A stretch of 26,225 bases of DNA, from positions 1 to 26,225 of IMG/VR virus record IMGVR_UViG_3300025120_000463; one strand, 5' to 3'. Each line of letters starts with the position of its first letter. Position 1 is the first letter of the stretch. The notes beneath the pieces were generated by a model that did no database searches, was not told where the DNA came from, and saw only the letters and a list, made by a program, of their open reading frames with translations. Below, piece by piece: positions 2,893 through 25,179 of the stretch. Source of the stretch: a virus. Position numbers and translations under genes: made by a program.

Positions 2893-2900
2893 GTCAGAAG

Positions 2901-2929
2901 AGTATAAAGCACCATCTCTATAGAGTCAT
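2901..2929 (-). promoter_or_regulatory. Sigma70-like promoter for terS with a palindrome in the spacer
   Basis: On the minus strand ATGACT (-35, four of six, at 2929-2924) is followed after exactly 17 bases by TATACT (-10, five of six, at 2906-2901). Transcription would begin near 2894, two or three bases before the terS ATG. A perfect 10-bp palindrome CTCTATAGAG (2916-2925) covers the end of the -35 and the start of the spacer and could be an operator. Confidence 0.55.
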
Positions 2930-2937
2930 ACAGAAAT

Positions 2938-3160
2938 ATAAAAAAAATAAAAAAAACTTTTCAAAACCCCTATAACGGGATTCTTCGATTAAGGATCTTG
3001 TTTTGAGTTTATGTAACTTGTGTAACCTTTTCGCTAACCTCCCGTAACCTCCAAAAGCACCGTGGGCCGTGGTCCCCAGACCGATAGTTACACAAACTAC
3101 ACCAGTTACGCCCTTTTTATGATTTTTTTTTATTTTTTTTTATTTATTTCCCCACGACAC
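2938..3160. other. Noncoding region with GTAAC repeats and AT-rich flanks: candidate origin or packaging site
   Basis: This is the largest gap between genes. Four close copies of a GTAAC-like word lie in one direction (GTAAC at 3013 and 3022, CTAAC at 3034, GTAAC at 3044). Two lie in the inverse direction (GTTAC at 3087 and 3105), and the larger units GTAACTTGTGTAAC and GTTACACAAACTAC form an imperfect inverted repeat. Between them is a GC-rich core with GGTC-CCCA-GACC. The cluster is flanked by an A-rich stretch (2938-2956) and a T-rich stretch (3115-3147). Iterons beside AT-rich, easily melted DNA are typical of replication origins. The place just upstream of terS also suits a packaging recognition site. 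The sequence does not decide between them. Confidence 0.45.
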
Positions 3161-3167
3161 TATATAG

Positions 3168-3914
3168 TTAGCCCTTTTTACGTTTCTTCTTTTTCGGCAT
3201 AACCGGACGTTTGAGCAAAGTGGGTTCGGGAGTCGCGCATTTTTTGCAAAATTCAGCGATTCTGGTGACGTATCCGCTCATCATATGATCGGTGACCGAG
3301 TCCTTGGCTTTCCAATCTTCCTGTTTTATTTGAGCATCGGGATTGACGAAGTCTTGACCGTTATTGGCAAACCACAGTTGCCGGAGGTTGTCACCTGTTG
3401 ACGGTCGATACCCGATCCGGGGGATTCGGGCGACGATATCGGAACCGTGGACCACGGAGTATTGTGATTGCAGATGGTCCATGCGGCATTTCTTAAAGCG
3501 AGAAAAGGTGTTGGGCTTGCCTAGCGCAACGAGGTGCAGATTTTTAAATTCCCGGGAAAGATGACAGGCGATTTCGGAGCAAGCACCCCCGAGCGAATGC
3601 CCGATTTGGACGGTCTTTTTAGCCGGGTTCAACTCTTTGCGGACATCTTTCCACACGCCCTGTTGATGTCGATAGAAACCCATGTGTATCCATGCGCCGC
3701 GTATAGGGCGGGGTATGAATAAAATATTGTAGAGCCAATCGCGTTTTGATTCTGTGCCGCGCCAGACCACGTAATCGACTTCGGTGGTTTTTAGCACGAA
3801 ACAGGTAGTATCGGTTTTCTTGTTTTCAAATTTCTTGGCGCCGGGGATATCGGCATCGTAAGCTTGGTCCGCGAGGTGTGCGGCTTTGGTCAGTAGCGCG
3901 GTATCGTGTTGCAT
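3168..3914 (-). CDS. Class 3 lipase-like alpha/beta hydrolase
   Basis: A 248-aa protein with the signature of class 3 lipases (Lipase_3). The nucleophile elbow is GHSLGG with Ser107. The other likely triad members are Asp159 in GSDIVARIP and His210 in TDHMMSGY, both in the usual order and spacing. VVWRGTE at about 49-55 matches the conserved strand that supplies the oxyanion hole. Expected activity is hydrolysis of acylglycerols, phospholipids or other esters; the substrate cannot be read from sequence. No signal peptide or membrane segment is seen. The last 15 residues are strongly basic (KKKKRKKG end). AGGAG lies about seven bases before the ATG. It is a single-gene unit, with a terminator upstream. 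A lysis, membrane-remodelling or superinfection role is possible but is inference. Confidence 0.85.
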   Translation of the reverse strand: MQHDTALLTKAAHLADQAYDADIPGAKKFENKKTDTTCFVLKTTEVDYVVWRGTESKRDWLYNILFIPRPIRGAWIHMGFYRHQQGVWKDVRKELNPAKKTVQIGHSLGGACSEIACHLSREFKNLHLVALGKPNTFSRFKKCRMDHLQSQYSVVHGSDIVARIPRIGYRPSTGDNLRQLWFANNGQDFVNPDAQIKQEDWKAKDSVTDHMMSGYVTRIAEFCKKCATPEPTLLKRPVMPKKKKRKKG

Positions 3915-3931
3915 CGTTTATCTCCTAAAAT

Positions 3932-3966
3932 AAAAAACCCCGGATCAAGTATACCTCAATCCGGGG
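3932..3966 (-). terminator. Intrinsic terminator with a TATACT element in its loop
   Basis: On the minus strand CCCCGGAT (3966-3959) pairs perfectly with ATCCGGGG (3945-3938), with a 13-base loop, and is followed by six T (plus-strand A at 3932-3937). It ends the unit of small genes at 4024-4887. The loop contains TATACT (3953-3948), which could be the -10 of the lipase promoter. A weak -35 (AAAACA) lies 17 bases upstream. The Shine-Dalgarno of the lipase starts only five bases after the T run. Confidence 0.85.
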
Positions 3967-4375: not shown

Positions 4376-4887
4376 AGTGTTGCCTCTTCTGTGGTTAATG
4401 AATCGTTTACTGGCGGATGGTATTTCTTGGCCAGTTGTTCGTAATAAAAGTACATAAGATCGTTGCCTTTAATCTTGGTAAGGAAAAGGCTTACCTTTTT
4501 TTGGAAAGCCCGCTGTTCTTCGTTCGTCGGAAGTATCGCTACCCGCCATTCTTTAAAAACCGCTTCGATGCTGTCCATGCTCCGTTGTTCTCTCTTAGAA
4601 AGCGGCGGCGCTGATTTTTCCCAAGCTTTCTGGCGGCACTCAAAGCACACGCTACCGATGCGGCGATGGCCTTTTTGATCCGGGACAGTGGGGCGACCAC
4701 ACTTGGTTGCTGAATCATAGCCGTAGCACCGCGTTGGCCGGGTTTCAAACCATCGGGATACGGCATAAAGGAACTGCTTGTCATTGTCGGTAAAGTCTTC
4801 TTCTCTTTCAGTGTGCGCCTCAAACATGTTTATCATGTTCCGCAAAATGTGAAGCTGCCCACTGTGGTTAGGTCTGTCCCAGTTCAT
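4372..4887 (-). CDS. Four-cysteine putative zinc-binding protein, 171 aa
   Basis: A 171-aa protein with four cysteines placed like a zinc ribbon or finger: Cys54 (TRCYG), Cys63 (TKCGRP), Cys81 and Cys84 (VCFECRQ). Helical segments with many charged residues lie on both sides. The function is unknown; DNA- or RNA-binding is a reasonable guess. GAGGAG lies about seven bases before the ATG. Directly upstream are a 15-bp palindrome and one copy of the 22-bp direct repeat, so this gene probably starts a controlled unit of three genes (171, 48 and 75 aa). An alternative-frame ORF at 4539-4823 is judged a shadow. Confidence 0.65.
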   Translation of the reverse strand: MNWDRPNHSGQLHILRNMINMFEAHTEREEDFTDNDKQFLYAVSRWFETRPTRCYGYDSATKCGRPTVPDQKGHRRIGSVCFECRQKAWEKSAPPLSKREQRSMDSIEAVFKEWRVAILPTNEEQRAFQKKVSLFLTKIKGNDLMYFYYEQLAKKYHPPVNDSLTTEEATL

Positions 4888-4906
4888 AGTTGTTCTCCTC
4901 TTGTTT

Positions 4907-4921
4907 TATGAGAGTCTCATA
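4907..4921. promoter_or_regulatory. Perfect 15-bp palindrome (operator candidate) before the 171-aa gene
   Basis: TATGAGA and TCTCATA form a perfect inverted repeat around one central base, 20 bases upstream of the 171-aa start codon and five bases from the 22-bp repeat copy. The spacing suits binding of a dimeric repressor over or just after a promoter. No T run follows, so it is not a terminator. Confidence 0.5.
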
Positions 4922-4925
4922 CCTT

Positions 4926-4947
4926 ATGTGTAAACGCAAGCTTTTTA
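4926..4947 (-). repeat. 22-bp direct repeat, copy A
   Basis: An exact match to 5828-5849 in the same orientation; on the plus strand it begins ATGTGTAAACGC and contains the HindIII-like AAGCTT. Read on the minus strand it contains TTGCGT followed by TTACACAT, giving -35-like words (TTGCGT or TTTACA), and it lies upstream of the 171-aa gene. It is probably a promoter or operator element rather than a mobile repeat. A weak hairpin (GCAC...GTGC, then TTTT) just upstream at about 4949-4965 may end the cysteine protease transcript. Confidence 0.7.
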
Positions 4948-4975
4948 AAAGGCACGTCCCTGTGCGGTGTAGCTC

Positions 4976-5719
4976 CTAGTATCTAACTTGAGTCAAAAGA
5001 CTTTTTTCGGGGTCCGGGTGTGTACGCATATCGTTGGCTGTGCCAATCTCAGCGATGTACATTTCCAAAAGCCCAAGCACTTCTTCCCAATCAATCCCAT
5101 AATGGCAATCAGTAGGGTCTTTATGAACCCAATCAGGACAGCCTACATATCGGGTCCAACCATCCAACCGATCGTCCTCACACGTTAGATCGTGGGCCTC
5201 CCCGTACTTTTTTAACAATCGATAGGCTTTAGCCCGTTCTTTACTGTAAGTGGGTTTTTTGTACTGGGGTTCTGGGATAGTAAGTTTGTCCCGGATCACC
5301 AGTTCCCACACATAAGTAACTCTTGCTCGACGTTTAACACCCTTATCTTTGATCGAGACAATCGCGCCAATGCGTCCGCAAGCGTAACGTCGGCCAGTAA
5401 CTAACTGGTAATGATTGCCCGCGATAATTAAGTAAACGCGGCCCGGGGTTCTTTTCTCTTTGTTTTCCCGAAGCCATCGAGCCAACGTCGGCCCTTTGCC
5501 TCTAGGGTAAACGTGAAGAGGAACGTAATCGATCCCGAGCTTGGTTAACACCAATCGCAGATTGCGGTCGTTAGCCCCGCGTACCGCGCCTCGATGGTTA
5601 CTAAAACGTCGAAACCACGAAGCACACTCGCTTGTGTCTTGCCCGGTCAAAAACGATAACACGGCAGGGCCGCAGTATCGGTTTGAACGCGCAGGACGGT
5701 TTAATGAAAATAATTTCAT
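4976..5719 (-). CDS. Papain/C39-like cysteine protease-like protein
   Basis: A 247-aa protein. Residues 13-19 (NRYCGPA) carry the Cys-Gly-Pro nucleophile motif (Cys16) of papain-like C39 peptidases. GNHYQLVTG at 101-109 supplies the matching His103, and the strand after it (IGAIVSIKDKG) fits the position of the third triad residue. The second half, from about residue 150, is a separate Lys/Tyr-rich then Cys/Asp/Trp-rich segment (YVGCPDWVHKDPTDCHYG) that I do not recognise. Similar C39-like proteins recur in phages without assigned function. Cleavage of a host or phage protein, or a catalytically repurposed fold, are both possible. The ribosome site is AAAGG about nine bases before the ATG. 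The gene is the first one leftward from the divergent control region. Confidence 0.65.
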   Translation of the reverse strand: MKLFSLNRPARSNRYCGPAVLSFLTGQDTSECASWFRRFSNHRGAVRGANDRNLRLVLTKLGIDYVPLHVYPRGKGPTLARWLRENKEKRTPGRVYLIIAGNHYQLVTGRRYACGRIGAIVSIKDKGVKRRARVTYVWELVIRDKLTIPEPQYKKPTYSKERAKAYRLLKKYGEAHDLTCEDDRLDGWTRYVGCPDWVHKDPTDCHYGIDWEEVLGLLEMYIAEIGTANDMRTHPDPEKSLLTQVRY

Positions 5720-14772: not shown

Positions 14773-14891
14773 GTTTTTTTGAGTTCACGAATAAACTCCA
14801 CACACTCTTCTAAGTCTGCTTCTATCTGAGACAGACGGTCAATGAAGGCTAACGCTTCGTCGCCACTAATTTTTATTTTTATTTCGTTCAC
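14730..14891 (-). CDS. 53-aa helical ORF ending the virion block
   Basis: A short ORF starting at GTG 14891, which overlaps the TGA of the 1404-aa gene as GTGA. It encodes MNEIKIKISGDEALAFIDRL and then a charged helix (EADLEECVEFIRELKK). Its last 43 bases overlap the 3' end of the convergent SNF2 gene. The coupling overlap and coherent helical sequence support it, but there is no family match, and it could be a chance ORF. Confidence 0.5.
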   Translation of the reverse strand: MNEIKIKISGDEALAFIDRLSQIEADLEECVEFIRELKKTQTSQPRKSSPKTV

Positions 14892-17800
14892 GACATTAAC
14901 GAGGCAATGCCTTCCCGGCCTTTAATGACTTCACTGGCAGTGTCGTAAGGGAACATGGCCGCGTACTGAGAACGAGTGGTAGGGGAAGCCGCTTGTTGTC
15001 CTTGAGCCGGGGGAGGTGGAGTGGGAGCCATAGGCATAGGCGCAACCGCCGGTTGAACCAAAGGTTCGCTAGATTGTGGCGCGGGCCGTGGTGCGGCCGC
15101 TACAGGCACTTCTTCGATTGTTTCGGTTTCTTCCATTTCAAATTCAGGAGACTGTAAATATTCAGCAATGTTTTGATAAGTAGTCGAACCCAAAATAGTT
15201 TCTAATTGAGGTTGTAGCGCAAGATGAAAATCACGCACGTCTTTGGGGTTGCGTATTTTTCGCATCATTTGAGCGGCGACTTTTGGATCTTGAGCAGTTT
15301 CGATCATCAACGCCAAAGCAGCTTCGCTAGGTAACTTTTCTAAATATCTACTTGCTAATTCAGAACCTAATTTTGCTGAAACAAGCGACCCTGACGACCC
15401 CCTCAATCCAATCTTTTCTTGAATACTTCGTATAAAACTACTAAACGTGCCAGCGCCCATTGCTCTTGCACCGGCTGAAACAAACATGTTGTTATCCAAG
15501 ATTTCTTGAACAAATGCTTGGTCACCCTCAAGAGTTTGTCCGCGCATAAGACTTTTGTTAATCCGTTCTCCTATATCCGTAATGGTAACTAAACCGTTAC
15601 GAAACTGATCATCTATTACATTTTCTTCAACTAATACGTCTAAAATAGTTTTAGGATTTTTCTGATTGCGATTAAGCGGTGCGGTTAAAAAATTGCCGAA
15701 CGCGGCAAAGTCTATAATTCCAGTGTTGGGGTTGCGTGATTTTTCAATCGCTGCATTAAGAACAACCTCTTTAAAACCGCGCACGGAGTTACCGGCGGCT
15801 GTTCCAAACTCTCCGCTGTCGGCTCTCTTGGCTATTTTTGCCAAACCCCTTAAACTTGCTTCAGGCGCATTAGTGCGTTTACTTCCATCTAAAATTGCAA
15901 GCATAGCTTCTACAGGTCTTTCGGGCACGTCTAAAAACATACGAAAAGCATCAATGTCTGCTTTCTGCGGTCCGTTGTAAATTCCTGCAAAATCTCTAGC
16001 CGGTCCCGTGGCACGTTGTACGCCCACACCACGCTTATCTTTTTTGAGTTTAAAACCGGAACCTACAATGTCGTCGCGGTATTTATCTAACTGGGCTTGC
16101 AAAGTAGAAGCGTTTTTTAAATCTTCTTCTATTGCTTTCATCCCCGGCAGTTCTAAAACTTTTTGGTATTTATTAAGGACCTGATCTAACGCATTTAGGT
16201 TTATTTCGCCGCGTTGTTTGCCTTTAGACCGAATGATTCCTTCTCGATTAGCAAACACGTCACGCAAAATGATTTCTTTTGCCCCACCCAATTCGTATTT
16301 CTTTAAAGCGCGTAACTCGTTAGCTTGCGCGGGCGTCACGTTTTTAATGGCAACGTCCATCGCTGTATCCAGTTGTTTAAAGTTTTGTGCGGTCATCGAA
16401 CCCGACGTAACAATAAATTTACGAGCAAGCTCTAAAGGGTCCACGCGCTTTGCGCCGCTGGCATCCTTCGCAAGAAGTGTTCCACCAAAAGCTCTGTCAA
16501 AAACTTCGTTTTTAGCATACGACAGTGCCCGCGCATTGTTAATGGCTTGTATTTGTTTTTCTACCGCTTCAATATTTTTGGCCGTAAAGCCAAGTTCTTC
16601 TAAAGATTCTCGCGTAGGAATAGCGCCAGACTTATCAAATTTTCCACCAATCGTCATTATGTCGTTTAAAGCCCGCCGTGCCATTCCGCCGTAATAACCG
16701 GTTTGGTTTCCTCCGGCTTCTGTAGAGCCTTTTGTCCGGGCATTTCTTAACATTTGAGATCGAAACTCTAACAAACGATTAATCGGCACATAAGTATTGT
16801 CTATAATTTTTTCAATTTTTTTATTAGAATTTTTTACTAGTTTGTCGAGATTTGTAATCGAAGTGTCAATGCTGCCAAGGCGGGTAATTTTTTCATTTAA
16901 GTTGCGTTCTATTTCGTCAACGCCGCTGTTAATTTCACTAAGTTTGGAGTCATATTGACTTGCAATGTCCATTTGCTCGTCTGTCATGTCAAGCACTGCA
17001 AGACCTGTCGTTTTTTCCGTTTCTTGACGTGGGCCAAGCTCGACTAAGGCACGTTGTGCGGTTGTTTCGGCTTCTTTTAAATCACTGTTTAAAACATTAA
17101 CTTGACGTTCTAAAACACTTTTCTCTCCGCGTAAGCTAGAAAGCTGTCCAAAATTGTTTTCGATTTCAGTCAGTTGTTTTTTGTAAGTGTCACGATAAAG
17201 AGGGTCTATCGATTCTTTCATAAAATCTTGAAGGTACTTTATGTATAAACCTTCGGCTGCTTGCGAACCACCTCGTGCCGGGTTAGTTTTTTCTAGCCAA
17301 AAATTAAAAATTTGTTTAACCGGCGCTTCAATACGTTTATCTATTTTTTTCCATGCCCTGTTTTCTGCTTGTTCGATTAGTTTATAGGGTCGTTCTATTC
17401 CGCTTTCTATCAAAATAGCAGCGGCGTTATCCGCATCCCCTAACACATCGCCTTCAGGCACATATTTAAAAGTGCCATCTTCTGTCACACGTTTAACACG
17501 ACGACCATCTTGTCCTTTAGTGGCTAGTCGCTCACCTTGTTGCATGGCCCGTGCAATGCTGCCATTGAGAGCCGCTTCCATAAGCTGTCGATAATATTCT
17601 TCTGCACTAAGGCTGACCGCTTGCATGACGGCAGGACTATCAAACTGAGCAAGGTTGTCTAAAATTGCCCCCATTTGTTGTACCGCTTCGGTAGATTGTC
17701 TAGCTAACTGTTTTTTACCACGATCAAGAGCGGGCGATCCCGACATGTCTGTTAACGTCGCTTGAAATATTTGCATAATTTCATCGCCAGTTTTTTCATA

Positions 17801-19102
17801 ACCTGAAAACGGCGGAAGATTTTTTTCTCCTAACAACTCTTTGGGTATGCCCACGTCATCGGACTCTAATCTTCTGGCAATTTCTGCTGTGTCCACACCT
17901 TTGTACTCAGGAGGTTTAGGCCCCCTATCTGCTACGGGAGTAGCGTTATAACGAGCCAATCGTTGTTCGTGAGCGGCTTGGCGTCCTGCGTCAACGTCAT
18001 CTACTATTTGAGTTAAAACTTTAATCACTTGGTTTTCAGCAGCACCTTCGCCCGCCGCTGCCGCACGTGCAGCTTCCCGTCTACCAATAGCATAAGCTAT
18101 CCCTACCGGAGAAAAACCCGTTGCAATTTCAGCAGGAATTCTTAAATACAAGTTGCCCGGATCAACCGTTTCAGCGACGGCTCCGGCTGCGCCCATTGCC
18201 GTACCTGCCGCCACAGCACCTGTTGCGCCTAGTTTAGGTGAACTAGCTCTCGCCGCTCTCGCCGTAGTCGCGCTTTTTTCTAAATTTCTTACCGCTTTTG
18301 CTAGGCTTGTTGCCATGCCTACATTGCTGGCCGCGTTTTCAAACAAAAAAGTTGAACCTAAGTTGACAGGACTTACGTTGGGTACAAAGGCCCCTGTGCC
18401 CGCTTGTTGGATTTCTCCTCGGAGACCCAAACCTAATGCTTTCCCTAACCCTGTTTTAGCAGCACTTTCAATGGCACGGGTGTAAGCGAAAGGCGAGGCT
18501 AATGCGCCAATGGTAAACCCGGCAGTTTCGCCAAAGACCCGGCCCTTTTGTGCAGAAGGGAGCAATTGTTGATCTTGACGACCAAGGTCTAAAGTTTCTT
18601 TAAGTTTATCTATACCCGCACGAGCCGGTATTGCGGCAGCCGTTGTGCCCCCGATAAGTCCGATCAAACCTCCTGTGACAAAACCAAGTCCTGCACCAAT
18701 AGTAGAGCCAACGCCGTAACCTGCTGCTGCTCCAAGGGGACCACGCCCGACAATAGTTCCTAACCCCGATCCTATTCGCCCGCCAATATCCGCACCAACA
18801 CGCGCCCCGGTTCGTGCGCCAATACCACCGGCTGTTGTTCCTGCCGTACCACTAACTACACCAACGGGAAGGGTAGTCGCTAATTCTTCAAAGGCCGCAC
18901 CATATGCTCCTTGATCACTTACATTAGCCACGTTGTATTGGATAATGTCTTCATCTGTTAACCCTGCTTTGCGGGCCGCGTCGTAATCGTAGTTGCGCCT
19001 TTGAGAAACGTATTGGGCAATGTCCGCTGCGTTCAGCCCTTCGACTTGTGCGGCACGAAGGTCGTACTGAAGTTGCGGATTGTTGTCAAAAGGAGAAGCC
19101 AT
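14888..19102 (-). CDS. Very large internal virion/ejection-type protein, 1404 aa
   Basis: The longest gene. The N-terminus has two related motifs, GLNAADIAQY (22-31) and GLTDEDIIQY (47-56), similar to the GYSDEEI-type motifs of phage internal virion proteins. Residues about 79-160 are a Gly/Ala-rich hydrophobic tract (GIGARTGARVG..., FVTGGLIGLIGG) able to enter membranes. Long coiled-coil-like regions follow (around residues 640-800). A Pro-rich linker (PMAPTPPPPAQ) and a terminal SQYAAMFPYDTASE close it, a tail I associate with marine phage proteins. No lytic transglycosylase motif was seen. Position and size match the last of the T7 core proteins (gp16), so DNA ejection is the best guess. 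The ATG overlaps the previous stop as TAATG; AAGG is nine bases upstream. Confidence 0.65.
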   Translation of the reverse strand: MASPFDNNPQLQYDLRAAQVEGLNAADIAQYVSQRRNYDYDAARKAGLTDEDIIQYNVANVSDQGAYGAAFEELATTLPVGVVSGTAGTTAGGIGARTGARVGADIGGRIGSGLGTIVGRGPLGAAAGYGVGSTIGAGLGFVTGGLIGLIGGTTAAAIPARAGIDKLKETLDLGRQDQQLLPSAQKGRVFGETAGFTIGALASPFAYTRAIESAAKTGLGKALGLGLRGEIQQAGTGAFVPNVSPVNLGSTFLFENAASNVGMATSLAKAVRNLEKSATTARAARASSPKLGATGAVAAGTAMGAAGAVAETVDPGNLYLRIPAEIATGFSPVGIAYAIGRREAARAAAAGEGAAENQVIKVLTQIVDDVDAGRQAAHEQRLARYNATPVADRGPKPPEYKGVDTAEIARRLESDDVGIPKELLGEKNLPPFSGYEKTGDEIMQIFQATLTDMSGSPALDRGKKQLARQSTEAVQQMGAILDNLAQFDSPAVMQAVSLSAEEYYRQLMEAALNGSIARAMQQGERLATKGQDGRRVKRVTEDGTFKYVPEGDVLGDADNAAAILIESGIERPYKLIEQAENRAWKKIDKRIEAPVKQIFNFWLEKTNPARGGSQAAEGLYIKYLQDFMKESIDPLYRDTYKKQLTEIENNFGQLSSLRGEKSVLERQVNVLNSDLKEAETTAQRALVELGPRQETEKTTGLAVLDMTDEQMDIASQYDSKLSEINSGVDEIERNLNEKITRLGSIDTSITNLDKLVKNSNKKIEKIIDNTYVPINRLLEFRSQMLRNARTKGSTEAGGNQTGYYGGMARRALNDIMTIGGKFDKSGAIPTRESLEELGFTAKNIEAVEKQIQAINNARALSYAKNEVFDRAFGGTLLAKDASGAKRVDPLELARKFIVTSGSMTAQNFKQLDTAMDVAIKNVTPAQANELRALKKYELGGAKEIILRDVFANREGIIRSKGKQRGEINLNALDQVLNKYQKVLELPGMKAIEEDLKNASTLQAQLDKYRDDIVGSGFKLKKDKRGVGVQRATGPARDFAGIYNGPQKADIDAFRMFLDVPERPVEAMLAILDGSKRTNAPEASLRGLAKIAKRADSGEFGTAAGNSVRGFKEVVLNAAIEKSRNPNTGIIDFAAFGNFLTAPLNRNQKNPKTILDVLVEENVIDDQFRNGLVTITDIGERINKSLMRGQTLEGDQAFVQEILDNNMFVSAGARAMGAGTFSSFIRSIQEKIGLRGSSGSLVSAKLGSELASRYLEKLPSEAALALMIETAQDPKVAAQMMRKIRNPKDVRDFHLALQPQLETILGSTTYQNIAEYLQSPEFEMEETETIEEVPVAAAPRPAPQSSEPLVQPAVAPMPMAPTPPPPAQGQQAASPTTRSQYAAMFPYDTASEVIKGREGIASLMS

Positions 19103-22100
19103 TAAGAGCGCCTTCGGTTTATAGGTCCGCCTTGACTAGCCAAAATAGCGGACCTAAGTGAGCTTTCTTCAAAAGACCTGTCTTCCATTCCCGGAAGGGG
19201 TAGCATCCTGCGTGACAATAGAGCTTGGCCCACGTTACCCTGCGCGTTACCCAAACCTCGTTCAAACATGGACGGATCAGGCTTGTCTAATTTGCCTAAT
19301 CCGATCTCATACGACTTAATTATTTTGTTGTAGTTATCAAGCAAAGGAGTCAAAGAAGTTAAATCTTCTCGCGCCCCAATAATTACTTTTTGATTATAAG
19401 CTTGTGGTGCTTCTAGCACACTTGTAGCCAAACTTTGAACCTCTTGCAGTTGATTCCGCATAGTCTGCAATTTAACAAGCGTAGTCTCGTCCATTTTAAA
19501 CGCACCCGGTTGAGCGATTTCTTCAGCCAACGCTTGAATTTCAATAGCTAACGGTCGGCCAGACGTTGAAGAGTTTCGTATAAAGCGTTGCGTCATGTTA
19601 GATACGGCTCTTAATTGCTCGGAAGCTTGGTCTACCTCTATAAATGGCGCAGAGGTAGGTAACCCAAATTCTCGTCCAGTTTCTGCACCTACGTTTAAAA
19701 CTCTTTTTAACCCACTTATGGGGCCGGTAGCATCTTCAAAACTTAACGTCTCATCAACAATAAAACCTTCTGGAGGAGGGGTAGGTTCCAAGGCTGAACG
19801 AGGTTGCTCCATCATTCTTTTTTGAAAGGCTGTCATTTGAGGGTCACCTCCTTCAGCCATTTTTACAACAGCACCCCCTTGAGCAAACATCGGTCCGACG
19901 TTTTGTTCATAAAGCCTAGCTGCTTCAACCACGGCACTTGGTAGAGAGGGATTGCTATACGTGGACATTCCCGTACTAGGATCAAAAACGCGAGAAGGGC
20001 GGCTCAAAACTTCAATAGACTGAATAATTTGTTGCGCTTCGCTGGGTGAGGACAAGCCTCTACCAAATCGGTCTAAGGCGTCCGTATTAGATAAAACGCC
20101 GCGCATAATACCTTCTTGACTGCCCCCAAATAGTTTACTGTAATCTGTTTGAAGACTTTGAATAGCTTCGATACGATCTGTTCCTGCTTGATATCCCCGA
20201 ATGCCAAGATCTACACTTTCATTTTCTACTTTAGCTCTAGCCAGTTCTTCCGAAAGTTTACGATTTGCCTCTCGGAATCGTTGCATAAAGCTTGCTTCTT
20301 CTTGTTTTAACTGCAAAGACTCCTCTTGAATATTAAAACCAAATTTTTGAGCTTCGCGGGCTATATCAAAAGCAGTGGTTCCTACTCCAAAACCTGTATC
20401 TATTCCAAGTACACTATTTGCAACTGCGTTAATTATTCCACGTTCTCCACCACGCAACGCTTCTCTCTGGCGTACTAACTCTGTGAACTGATCCCTGCCT
20501 AATTCTTCGGCAAACTCATCATTAGCTAACAGTCTATCCAACTGACGAGTAAATTCACTTTCTCCTTGGGCAATTCTTTCTCGTTGCATTTCTAATTGAT
20601 GTAGCTGCTCGTCATCTTGCAAGTCGGCCCGCTTTTGTAAGTCCAAACGCATAGAAGCACGTTGTTCCAGACCGCGCAGACCTATCAAATCTCCTTCAGC
20701 TATCTTTCGAGCTTCAATCTGACCCAGTTCAAATTCATTTAGTTGTCCATCACGTTTTAGTTGAGCAACCATCCGGTCGTCAATAAGCCCCGTTTCAACT
20801 TCCCCTCTTTCGTTAATAAGATCTATTTCAACCCCGCCGCGTTTTAAAATTTCTTCTATACGTCGGGTCGTGTCTTTATCAAACAAGCGTTCAGTTAAGC
20901 TGTTTCTTTCTGTAGCTAATCGTTCTTGAAGTTGCCGATCGCTTTCACCTTCGGTTCGTTGAAACCTTCGATTAAGTTCGTTTTCACGTCCCGTAAAGCG
21001 TAGCCCCTCTACTTGACTCGCTAAAGCTCCTGCGCCCCGGAACATATCGGATTGAATGCCCCGTGCAGCGCCAATTCTAGCCGCCTCGGCCGCTTCAGCG
21101 GACTGTAACGCTCCCGCTGCTGCCCCACGCTCTATGTTACGCAATTCCCTAGCTCCGGCTCCTGCGCTTGCGACTACTGGTTGAGCAGCAGAAGCAAGCT
21201 GCGAAGCTAAAGGCTTGCCCGCCATCGACTGCCCTGTGCGAGGGTCTGTGCCAGAAGCAAGGTTCAAACCCGCTTGAGCAATATCAAAATAAAGTTTGGA
21301 CTGTAAATCTTGTTTAGTTTGATCAGTATCGCCCAACAGGCGTTGATAAATGGGCATACGCGCATCCACCATTGAACCAAATTCATCTGCCGTGGAAGGA
21401 GCCGTAAGTGCTTGATATTGATTTAAAATATTAGAAAGGTCAGGAGTCCCTCCGTTAGCAAATCTTTGCACCGGACCACCTGCGTTCATTTCAGGTATGA
21501 CTTCCTCTACGGACTGACTCATCATTAGTTCGCCAATGCCCTGCCCCATCGGAGTAGGTACGCCCATCTCGGTTTCCATGTCAACTTCGCCAGAAATGCC
21601 TTGCATCAATTCGCCAATGCCAGAGTCCATTGCGCCCTGCTCTGTCATCATAATCGTAGGCTGAACAAGCGTTAAAACAGATTCAGGAGTAGCCGAAGCG
21701 TCACGTTCTCCTACAAAGTTAGCCAGTTCGTCATAACGCTCTTGTAAAGTCCGGTCATCACCACGCATGGCGTCGATCAATTCTTCGGTGCTGTCAGCGG
21801 TGTCTATACCCGTCATCATTTCGTCAAGATATTCTTGACCTAACGCTTCTCCCTGTTGTGCCGCCGCATTTTCTGCCACTTGCACTTGAGCTTCCGGGGC
21901 TGGACCGGGAGCCGGGAGCATAGGAGGGGGCATCATTGCCGGGTCCATCATGGGCATAGGTTGGCCGCCATTTGCCAAACGGTTCATTTGAGCGCGTAAA
22001 TAATCTTTTTCTCGCAGATCACGGGCATATTCTTCCCGTGCATCAATCCGTCCCGCGCCACTACCGTGTGTTCTCGGTGCAATTCGGTAAATCTCGTCGT

Positions 22101-22179
22101 CAACATTACGGATGGTGCGCTCGTCATGACGCATCAAGCCGCCGCGATTCATAAACATTGGTCGATTGAGTATTGTCAT
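19102..22179 (-). CDS. Large virion protein with repeated Gly-Gly motifs, 1025 aa
   Basis: A 1025-aa protein. Gly-Gly motifs recur at MNRGGLM (10-16), LANGGQP (68-74), MNAGGPVQRFANGG (231-244) and MFAQGGAVVKMAEGG (764-778). A Met/Pro-rich linker is at 73-95. A stretch LYFDIAQAGLNLASG (296-310) is familiar from virion proteins of marine phages. The middle (about 400-660) is extremely charged, rich in Arg, Glu and Gln, and probably a long helical rod. No enzyme motif seen. It sits between the 386- and 1404-aa genes with minimal spacing, matching the place of T7 gp15 in the internal core cassette; the assignment is by context. Confidence 0.6.
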   Translation of the reverse strand: MTILNRPMFMNRGGLMRHDERTIRNVDDEIYRIAPRTHGSGAGRIDAREEYARDLREKDYLRAQMNRLANGGQPMPMMDPAMMPPPMLPAPGPAPEAQVQVAENAAAQQGEALGQEYLDEMMTGIDTADSTEELIDAMRGDDRTLQERYDELANFVGERDASATPESVLTLVQPTIMMTEQGAMDSGIGELMQGISGEVDMETEMGVPTPMGQGIGELMMSQSVEEVIPEMNAGGPVQRFANGGTPDLSNILNQYQALTAPSTADEFGSMVDARMPIYQRLLGDTDQTKQDLQSKLYFDIAQAGLNLASGTDPRTGQSMAGKPLASQLASAAQPVVASAGAGARELRNIERGAAAGALQSAEAAEAARIGAARGIQSDMFRGAGALASQVEGLRFTGRENELNRRFQRTEGESDRQLQERLATERNSLTERLFDKDTTRRIEEILKRGGVEIDLINERGEVETGLIDDRMVAQLKRDGQLNEFELGQIEARKIAEGDLIGLRGLEQRASMRLDLQKRADLQDDEQLHQLEMQRERIAQGESEFTRQLDRLLANDEFAEELGRDQFTELVRQREALRGGERGIINAVANSVLGIDTGFGVGTTAFDIAREAQKFGFNIQEESLQLKQEEASFMQRFREANRKLSEELARAKVENESVDLGIRGYQAGTDRIEAIQSLQTDYSKLFGGSQEGIMRGVLSNTDALDRFGRGLSSPSEAQQIIQSIEVLSRPSRVFDPSTGMSTYSNPSLPSAVVEAARLYEQNVGPMFAQGGAVVKMAEGGDPQMTAFQKRMMEQPRSALEPTPPPEGFIVDETLSFEDATGPISGLKRVLNVGAETGREFGLPTSAPFIEVDQASEQLRAVSNMTQRFIRNSSTSGRPLAIEIQALAEEIAQPGAFKMDETTLVKLQTMRNQLQEVQSLATSVLEAPQAYNQKVIIGAREDLTSLTPLLDNYNKIIKSYEIGLGKLDKPDPSMFERGLGNAQGNVGQALLSRRMLPLPGMEDRSFEESSLRSAILASQGGPINRRRS

Positions 22180-22180
22180 A

Positions 22181-23341
22181 TTAGAAGCCCATTCCCATAG
22201 TCCGCGCTCCTTGTACTGCGCCGAGTCCTGCTATGCCGAGTCCCAAAACCTGTTGTGCTGTAGAAGGTTGTTGCCCGCCGCCTTGCGTCGTAATAGTAGC
22301 TTGGCTAGTCGGTGTACCGCGAGAAATGTCCGACAAGAAACCAAGCTGTTGATAAGGGGCGGCTAGTCTTTCTACGTTGCTTTGTCTGACCGCATCTAGC
22401 TCTGCCTGTTGCTGTCCACGTTGCATAGCACCTAATGCGGTAAGCGTTTGAATGTCACTTAGGTTTGAGCTTTGTGCTAACTGGCCTAACCCGGCCTGTT
22501 GTAAACCAAGGTTGGCGGCCTGTGTGCCGAGGCCCGCGTACTGTCCAGCAAGAGAACCGAGTCCTTGCCCAATGCTTTGCATCTGCCCAATATCAGCCTG
22601 ACTAAGCTGCCCGTAACCAATTCCCAAATCGCCAATACCCTGAGAGGCCGCTAACCGACGGTTCTGCGTGTTCTCAAACGCCTGTTGTGCCGCGTTCCGT
22701 GCAGACTCATAACCTTGCTGACGCAGGTTACCGGCGGCTCTACCTTGCTCTCGTAATATATTGGCAGCCAGTTCAGAATCCATAATGCCGGAGCGCGATC
22801 CACCAAACGCACCACTAGCCACGGCATTGGCGCGTTGCTGTTGAAGCTGCACATCACCTTGATTTTGGATATCTTGCAAGGTTTGTTGGACCACTGCATC
22901 TTCATAAGGGTTTTCAAAACTAGACACTTGCGTAGAAGGGTCGAACGTCCCGGCACTGGCAAGCATTCCTTCGCCCGCAGCCGTTTGATACTGATAAGGA
23001 ATCTCACGTAGCTGTTGAGCTAACCGTCCAGACTCTAATAAATACTCTTGGCCCTGTCCTAACGTAGGAAGCGCCGCGTTTTGAATCATGCCTTGCCCAG
23101 CAGTAACTTGATTTAAGCCACCTTGCAGATAAGGAGCGTAAGCGCCTAGCCCTGCTTGTCCCATCGTTGCCGCTTGTTTTTCTAATCCGGTAAGCCCCGC
23201 TACTTGATACGCAGGAGGAAGCGCCGACTCGTCTGTCAATCGGGCGGTTACAAGGTCTTTAACGTCTTTGAGAGTGCCCAGACGGTACGCTTCGACCCTA
23301 GGATCTTCTCTGACTATCTGTGTGGTGGTTTCATTAGCCAT
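22181..23341 (-). CDS. Ala/Gln/Gly-rich virion protein with AFGGSR motif, 386 aa
   Basis: A 386-aa low-complexity protein rich in Gln, Ala and Gly. The segment NPYEDAVVQQTLQDI (144-158) followed by ASGAFGGSRSG (176-186) is a combination I recognise from conserved structural proteins of marine phages. The second half contains many short GLG/QAGLG/GLGSLA repeats and ends in a hydrophobic Gly-rich segment (QVLGLGIAGLGAVQG), possibly membrane-active. It precedes the 1025- and 1404-aa genes and may correspond in role to T7 gp14, an outer ejection protein; this is inference from order and composition. The ATG overlaps the previous stop as TAATG. Confidence 0.6.
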   Translation of the reverse strand: MANETTTQIVREDPRVEAYRLGTLKDVKDLVTARLTDESALPPAYQVAGLTGLEKQAATMGQAGLGAYAPYLQGGLNQVTAGQGMIQNAALPTLGQGQEYLLESGRLAQQLREIPYQYQTAAGEGMLASAGTFDPSTQVSSFENPYEDAVVQQTLQDIQNQGDVQLQQQRANAVASGAFGGSRSGIMDSELAANILREQGRAAGNLRQQGYESARNAAQQAFENTQNRRLAASQGIGDLGIGYGQLSQADIGQMQSIGQGLGSLAGQYAGLGTQAANLGLQQAGLGQLAQSSNLSDIQTLTALGAMQRGQQQAELDAVRQSNVERLAAPYQQLGFLSDISRGTPTSQATITTQGGGQQPSTAQQVLGLGIAGLGAVQGARTMGMGF

Positions 23342-25179
23342 TAGGCAACGCCCTCGTAACTACGCATTATTTCATACATTTTTTTAACGCCTTGATTTCT
23401 GTTGCCGTTTCCTGCACCGCGCACCGCTTGTGCGGTCATTACAAATTCGCCGTCAGATAACATGGCCGGAATGTCGTCAGAGGTCCCTGTACCGGGTCCC
23501 GCTATTGCGCCATCCCTACGTGGAAAGTCTGAAGTAGAGCCACCTTCGGCGGCGCCGTAAGGCTTGCCTCCTAAGTTATAAGGCGCTCCGGCATAAAATA
23601 CTCGATAAGCTTGTGGATCGGCGGACAGTAAGTCGAAACCACTTTGACCGCCCATATCAAAAGGATCGGGTGGCGCGGGAATGTCCTCGCCTTCAAAGCC
23701 TCCGCTTAAACCTAATGCCCCAAGTCCCGCAGCCGCTAATGGGCCATATTGACGTAGCATGTTAGGGTTAAAACCTTTTGTTTTTCCGTACATCTCTACT
23801 AAGGCCGGATAATCTTTTAAAGTAATTGTTTCGCCTAATTGTTCAAAAACTTTTTCTTTTACTTGTCCAAAAGTTGCTTCAGGACCTAACCCAAATTTAG
23901 AACGCATAATTTCGTCTGGCGAATAACTGGAAGGTAAAAAAGCGTCTTTACCCGCTTCAAAAAAACTTTTATCTCCCGGCGTAACCATATCCTTTAAAGA
24001 GCTAAAAAATCCCGGTGGTTTTTGAACAGGTTGCGGTCCAAATCTTTGAGCCATATCGTCTGCAAAATTAAAAGCAGTATCCGCAACTACGTTAGTTTCT
24101 GCGATACCTCCTCCCGTAGGTTTAACAACGGGTTGTGCTGTGCCGCTTGCTGCACTTGCTGTATCCGTTCCCGATACGCCTCCCCTAAACCCTTGGTTGA
24201 CGTTGTCTGGAGCAAATAAATCCGTTGTCGTTGGCGTCATTACGGTTTTATTAGCCGCAGGAGCAGCAACTGCTGTTGGTCGAGGGGCGGTTATCGTCTG
24301 CTGCATGTTCTGAGGTAGCGAGACGTTTGGCTGTCGTTGAGCCGCCGCTAAATTTTGCGTTGTATTTGCGCCCGGTATATTGGCTACAGGAGCATTCGTA
24401 GCTCCTGTTACCGTAGTAGACCCTGCCGGAGCAACCGGAGGCGGTAACGCTTGATTAGCCGCTTGTGCCGCAGTTTGATTAAGCGCCGCTGCTTGTGATG
24501 CTCTCATTGCGTCGGGTAAGCCAGACTGCACCCCCGCTCTAAAGCCCGCCCCTAATGTGCCGCCTTGCATTTTAGAGCCAATGGCTCCGGTAACGCCTTT
24601 AAACAGTCCTGCGGTTAAACCGCCTATAGCACCCATCTTGAGCGCGTCTTTGAGACTGCCGCCCTGTATCAAGGTGCCTATGCCGCTACCTAAAGCAGAA
24701 CCCGCAATCACACCAAGCGGTGTAAAAGATAACCCAATAGATAACGCAATGGGCGCTACCTTCTTAATAACTTTGACTACTTTCTTAACGGCTTTTTTAA
24801 GCCCTCTAAACAGCTTTTTGAGAAAAAACTCAGGCTGGCCGGTTACAGGGTTAATTGAATTAAGTTCGCTACCCACCACGTATCGTTCGGGATCTATGCC
24901 CATTGAACGCATTTGATTAAATAACGTAGCTTTTAATCGTGGGTTTTCATCAAACACTGCCATCGGGATAACTGTTTCTCCCTCGGCGGCGTGAACCATG
25001 TAGGTATCTTCATAACGGCCGTATTCTGCAAGCTGATCAGCTACAGACCGAACGCTACCAATACCGCTTGCAGGTATTCTTTCGTCGGTGTCTGCCCAAT
25101 CTCCGGTCGTTGCCGTAAGAAAAGAAGCAATACCGCCTTCGGGAACTTCCATTGATTCTGGTCGCACAAAATCGTTCAC
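23341..25179 (-). CDS. Virion protein with cationic amphipathic helix and SDDIPAMLSDGEFV motif, 612 aa
   Basis: Starts with GTG at 25179 (GGAG nine bases upstream). Residues about 59-118 (TYMVHAAEGETVIPM... through NPVTGQPEFF) form a conserved-looking domain of marine phage structural proteins. Residues about 120-141 are a strongly cationic amphipathic helix (LKKLFRGLKKAVKKVV then KVIKK), followed by a hydrophobic Gly-rich segment (142-173) and another at 183-200. A long Ala/Pro/Thr-rich linker leads to a C-terminal GPGTGTSDDIPAMLSDGEFV (about 560-580), a motif frequent in phage tail and tape-measure-like proteins. The layout suggests a virion protein that touches or crosses the cell membrane during infection. 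No enzyme motif seen. Confidence 0.65.
   Translation of the reverse strand: MNDFVRPESMEVPEGGIASFLTATTGDWADTDERIPASGIGSVRSVADQLAEYGRYEDTYMVHAAEGETVIPMAVFDENPRLKATLFNQMRSMGIDPERYVVGSELNSINPVTGQPEFFLKKLFRGLKKAVKKVVKVIKKVAPIALSIGLSFTPLGVIAGSALGSGIGTLIQGGSLKDALKMGAIGGLTAGLFKGVTGAIGSKMQGGTLGAGFRAGVQSGLPDAMRASQAAALNQTAAQAANQALPPPVAPAGSTTVTGATNAPVANIPGANTTQNLAAAQRQPNVSLPQNMQQTITAPRPTAVAAPAANKTVMTPTTTDLFAPDNVNQGFRGGVSGTDTASAASGTAQPVVKPTGGGIAETNVVADTAFNFADDMAQRFGPQPVQKPPGFFSSLKDMVTPGDKSFFEAGKDAFLPSSYSPDEIMRSKFGLGPEATFGQVKEKVFEQLGETITLKDYPALVEMYGKTKGFNPNMLRQYGPLAAAGLGALGLSGGFEGEDIPAPPDPFDMGGQSGFDLLSADPQAYRVFYAGAPYNLGGKPYGAAEGGSTSDFPRRDGAIAGPGTGTSDDIPAMLSDGEFVMTAQAVRGAGNGNRNQGVKKMYEIMRSYEGVA

Follow-up and report, generated by a model that had tools for sequence, protein, structure and literature searches.

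A phage class 3 lipase gene in two genomic slots of related phages, and its possible part in host lysis

The stretch of DNA analysed here (the window; 26,225 nucleotides of the virus record IMGVR_UViG_3300025120_000463) encodes a class 3 lipase of 248 aa on its minus strand (positions 3168-3914; ORF call, profile matches, selection). The new observation is that this lipase family is found at two slots in the genomes of related phages, each slot with its own clade, and that the two clades are sisters. One slot adjoins the terminase small subunit gene (terS, minus strand, 2260-2892; profile matches, flank comparison), the fixed downstream neighbour of the lipase, and the other lies in the late module. 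The best-supported role of the lipase, to which we give about an even chance, is that of a membrane-attacking accessory of host lysis, used late, as the gene association in sister phages and the analogy to mycobacteriophage LysB suggest. It is the likeliest role because the sister-phage homologues head a lysis cassette; the window-clade lipase stands outside such a cassette, so that the case for a lysis role depends on homologues about 40% identical to it.

A nucleotide search of the window against phage records yields no match. The window DNA polymerase shares 50-53% identity with its counterparts in DSL-LC04 (annotated as a freshwater phage with a gammaproteobacterial host), 023Pt_psg01 and the pelagiphage HTVC023P, and judging from related phages the window virus is probably from marine bacteria. 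The contig G001 (56,748 bp) is 88-99% identical over most of the window; window bases 4884-5371 span both of its ends, so that G001 serves as a near-complete genome. A search of HTVC023P, HTVC027P, DSL-LC04 and 023Pt_psg01 for the lipase gene finds it absent in all four, and it is therefore not required across the phage group. At 14888-22179 (minus strand) the window also encodes two very long proteins of 1404 and 1025 aa without a PHROG match, at the place taken in DSL-LC04 by the annotated 'DNA transfer protein'; these may be ejection proteins.

The earlier note on this DNA gave no strand for the gene; its description of a probably active class 3 lipase with an intact triad and lacking a signal peptide is borne out by the following comparisons. 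The protein matches Pfam Lipase_3 (E 3.9e-15, 56.4 bits vs a curated cutoff of 22), phrog_21992 'esterase/lipase' (E 7.6e-13) and, with a profile built from 21 sequences, fungal class 3 lipases in PDB (E down to 8.5e-14). A hydrophobicity scan reveals no segment at transmembrane or signal level (maximum Kyte-Doolittle 0.66). A position check places the codons of Ser107 (in GHSLGG; 3594-3596), Asp159 (3438-3440, also by profile comparison) and His210 (3285-3287), all on the minus strand, where the earlier note had put the catalytic residues. GHSLGG, Asp159, Asp209-His210 and Arg163-Ile-Pro-Arg166 (RIPR) are invariant in the 24 homologues compared, and the oxyanion residues G53-T54 are unchanged across 21 homologues. 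A structure model from a 10-row alignment was poor (pLDDT 67); a 21-row alignment raised the mean pLDDT to 82 (the final 20 residues score below 50), and the model resembles feruloyl esterase A (FaeA) and the Rhizomucor (RML) and Thermomyces (TLL) lipases (TM about 0.5-0.67). Profile, model and conservation together make the encoded protein very likely a catalytically active class 3 lipase.

Pfam PF01764 (Lipase_3) comprises the fungal Rhizomucor, Rhizopus and Thermomyces lipases, feruloyl esterase A and plant phospholipase A1. The window lipase shares with them the alpha/beta-hydrolase fold (as predicted in the model), the GHSLGG nucleophile elbow, the Ser-Asp-His triad and the RGT oxyanion/lid segment. 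Unlike them it is phage-encoded, possesses no secretion signal and ends in a basic disordered C-terminal tail, and it is only about 20% identical. It is also similar, at about 29% identity across 69% of the protein, to phrog_21992 and the 'lipase' of Prochlorococcus phage P-SSM2, a phage class 3 family. P-SSM2 differs as a T4-like cyanophage whose lipase has neither recognised lysis neighbours nor a basic tail. A scan of bacterial genomes for cellular relatives returns no close ones.

Relatives of the lipase occur in 20 IMG/VR loci at 56-99% identity, and a pairwise omega of 0.03-0.18 indicates purifying selection. The gene is not decaying; recent chance acquisition with decay and absence from all relatives, which the earlier note had named as refuting evidence, is ruled out by these relatives, by omega and by the conserved gene position. 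The polybasic tail to which that note drew attention (residues 234-248, minus strand, 3171-3215; predicted disordered in the model) does exist, with a net charge of +9 over the last 18 residues, and recurs in most homologues of the TerS slot, where its sequence varies and the net charge of the last 18 residues stays at +7 to +12. However, it is missing from L007 and L012 and short or even acidic in the sister clade (L124, L126), which weakens its standing as a key feature. From charge comparison the tail may aid membrane binding but does not define the lipase. The earlier note had also proposed a block of superinfection. A tail able to bind acidic membranes and the accessory position beside terS would suit a factor for superinfection exclusion or against competitors that acts at the membrane, but neither a transmembrane segment nor a signal is present in the protein, conservation does not extend to the tail, and the sister copies stand in the late module, which leaves this proposal improbable.

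Comparison of gene position among relatives bears most directly on the role. Within the 20 IMG/VR loci, terS follows the lipase in all nine whose inspected flanks reach far enough. The close relative G002 has a terS slot without lipase; its initial classification as a lipase-less relative was overturned by a whole-contig search, which found a 41%-identical lipase in its late module. A search with this copy recovers 15 further loci. In the late-module homologues L114-L119, L121, L124 and L126 the lipase gene is followed by that of a 69-79-aa lipoprotein, with an overlap of 8 nt. A holin-like protein comes after the lipoprotein in L114, L119, L124 and L126, and a lysozyme-like gene, whose product is similar to the G001 lysozyme, after the holin-like gene in L114, L119 and L124. 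The usual order in the sister clade is lipase - lipoprotein - holin-like - lysozyme, with the lipase at the head, and proteins with a hydrophobic helix and a coiled coil are usually encoded upstream. The sister-clade neighbours carry a lipobox and an N-terminal hydrophobic segment, as would a putative two-component spanin (an outer-membrane lipoprotein with an inner-membrane coiled-coil protein), and match Rz-like spanin families weakly (E 0.03-0.15); a separate match to a holin family is also weak (E 0.016). The G002 late-module lipase precedes a stabilization-like protein, not a lipoprotein.

G001 has its lipoprotein, holin-like and lysozyme genes at 41.6-42.8 kb, outside the window, with no lipase among them; the lysozyme assignment is firm (Pfam E 6.6e-8), and the sole lipase of G001 stands at the TerS slot. 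The lipase thus lies beside holin and endolysin genes in the sister clade but not in the clade of the window. The earlier suggestion of an action on membranes at lysis accordingly gains from the homologues that head the cassette, and the position of the window-clade copy outside it counts against the suggestion. TerS-slot and late-module lipases form two sister clades, so one relocation is enough, and the sequences are consistent with a single such event between the two slots.

The same positions can be read in two other ways. The lipase might be an auxiliary (moron-type) enzyme that alters host lipid metabolism, in line with the change of host lipids suggested in the earlier note, e.g. by fatty acid release or a change of membrane composition, and takes no part in lysis. 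Its place at the TerS slot, where it stands by itself after a terminator with replication-side and accessory genes around it, its clean presence or absence between relatives and the distant P-SSM2 lipase without lysis neighbours all point that way. Yet the sister homologues are part of a lysis cassette and overlap its lipoprotein gene, and no other lipid-metabolism gene is recognised among the window proteins scanned; we regard such a purely metabolic function as rather unlikely. A lipase carried in the virion or ejected, helping DNA entry, would agree with sister copies among the tail and stabilization genes of the late module. The overlap with the lysis-cassette lipoprotein fits lysis better, however, and in the window the lipase gene is not part of the structural module, so that this function has very little probability.

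As a lysis accessory, the lipase, which lacks a signal peptide, would be synthesised in the cytoplasm. Opening of the inner membrane by the holin could then give it access to the membrane phospholipids and, once the peptidoglycan has been cleaved, to the outer membrane from the inside; phospholipid hydrolysis by such a lipase or phospholipase would weaken these membranes. Both the activity on phospholipid and this order of lysis events are inferred, as is the assumption that the TerS-slot copy would keep the same job as the cassette copies.

The closest functional parallel is LysB of mycobacteriophages, a mycolylarabinogalactan esterase that serves as a lipolytic third lysis enzyme in a spanin-like role (PMC5707550). 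The likeness is functional only and holds if the lysis role is right; homology is not claimed. Unlike the case of LysB, the host envelope is a different one, and a spanin-like lipoprotein is also present in the relatives of the window lipase. A literature search of incomplete coverage for phage lipases in lysis brings up no precedent besides LysB. The opening of the outer membrane by phages is only partly solved, and a survey found 91 of 677 phages without a recognisable spanin (PMC6139136). A lipase gene that overlaps a lipoprotein gene and heads a holin-lysozyme cassette suggests an enzymatic route through the outer membrane, approachable with four small genes; if true, the LysB principle would hold beyond mycobacteriophages, in phages whose marine hosts are presumed to be Gram-negative.

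The leader of the window lipase contains a terminator-type hairpin directly upstream of the gene (minus strand, 3971-3933), with a U-run, ending 18 nt short of the ATG. A terminator scan between the lipase and the next gene detects none, and the earlier description of a single-gene unit between terminators is therefore only half right, the upstream half. With a dG of -33.1 kcal/mol (mean -13.9, sd 5.0 kcal/mol) the lipase leader is the most stable in G001. In a hand alignment, five of the eight positions in the lower stem of the hairpin have changed on both sides between clades, and the outer helix shows two-sided changes between the window and L002. The Shine-Dalgarno sequence (SD) AGGAG (3922-3926, minus strand) lies 8-12 nt before the ATG and is predicted by RNA folding to be paired in read-through RNA, with an unpaired probability of 0.01, against 0.65 in a shorter RNA whose 5' end is the GGGG in the 3' arm; the corresponding values for L002 are 0.00 (long RNA) and 0.48 (short RNA). 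Predicted SD occlusion is clear in the window and L002, partial in L006 and weak in L007 and L012, where the SD stays unfreed in the short RNA; the remaining subclade has no SD. Left-flank shuffle fractions are 0.008 for the window, 0.020 for L002, 0.07 for L006 and 0.20 for L007. The hairpin loop includes the hexamer TATACT (3948-3953, minus strand; TATAAT in L002), 6 nt ahead of the 3'-arm GGGG, a putative promoter element judged from sequence and enrichment; the lipase leader offers the -10-like element only, with no -35. TATA[AC]T is enriched in intergenic DNA of G001 (6 of 23 sites within 2.5% of the sequence, p 1.7e-5); the intergenic regions were picked out by eye, so this p value serves as a guide.

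In G002 the lipase-less terS slot aligns with both flanks and possesses the same terminator, the same left flank and the same anti-SD arm ACTCCTTGTAA. The hairpin is therefore primarily an operon terminator, and the idea of a device evolved for the lipase is weakened. The predicted SD occlusion may be a by-product. That the hairpin is nothing but the terminator of the preceding operon, without a role in lipase timing, and that the lipase is expressed by read-through, is the account we consider probable, all the more as SD occlusion is not general among relatives. It has to contend with the low shuffle fractions of the left flank in the window and L002, with the outer helix changed on both sides between these two, and with the -10-like loop, which is absent from the lipase-less site; lipase carriers differ from it in this loop and in the SD.

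Delayed lipase translation by way of the hairpin is plausible from the folding predictions, and we put it forward tentatively. In the window clade the lipase is located just behind an operon terminator, with its ribosome site predicted to be occluded in read-through RNA; transcription from the -10-like loop hexamer could yield a shorter lipase RNA open to translation, and translation restricted to the late phase would prevent a harmful enzyme from acting early in infection, on the pattern of T4 lysozyme. Long early RNAs of T4 gene e hide the lysozyme start, which late promoters upstream free (PMC3014915, PMC2988022). As in the leader of gene e (also soc, 49 and I-TevI), a stem is predicted to occlude the SD in the long RNA, and a -10-like hexamer is placed so that a short RNA would free it. 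Unlike in gene e, the lipase hairpin serves as a terminator too and occurs even where the lipase is missing, and the putative promoter is not of the T4 late type. Taken as a whole, a scheme in which the class 3 lipase serves this marine phage group as a dedicated lysis protein that hydrolyses envelope phospholipid from the inside, either alongside spanins as an enzymatic partner or in their place, and, outside the cassette, came under a terminator hairpin doubling as a late-translation switch, is speculative and on balance unlikely.

Several features of the neighbourhood are of minor note. The non-coding stretch between lipase and terS (minus strand, 2893-3167) is conserved and is kept in G002, which has no lipase here. 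It carries ATAAATAAAAAAAAATAAAA, followed by GTAAC/GGTTAC-like segments, and might be a site recognised by the terminase or else a promoter region. In a second TerS-slot subclade (L008, 3825-3900; similar in L009-L011, L013, L014 and L021-L026) a reading frame with the motif WIQKAIKNPGALRKKLGV meets the 3' end of the lipase; a 65-aa ORF similar to this frame is located in G002 near long late genes (L108, 15192-15389), with weak PHROG matches. A small P-loop kinase-like gene (L111, 3000-3440; G001 22997-23440, minus strand; phrog_10255 kinase, E 9e-28) adjoins a gene that has a homologue ahead of the lipase in L126. In 023Pt_psg01 (MW574966.1, 12990-13511; L019) a peptide deformylase gene occupies the region before terS, which suggests that this site accepts accessory genes.
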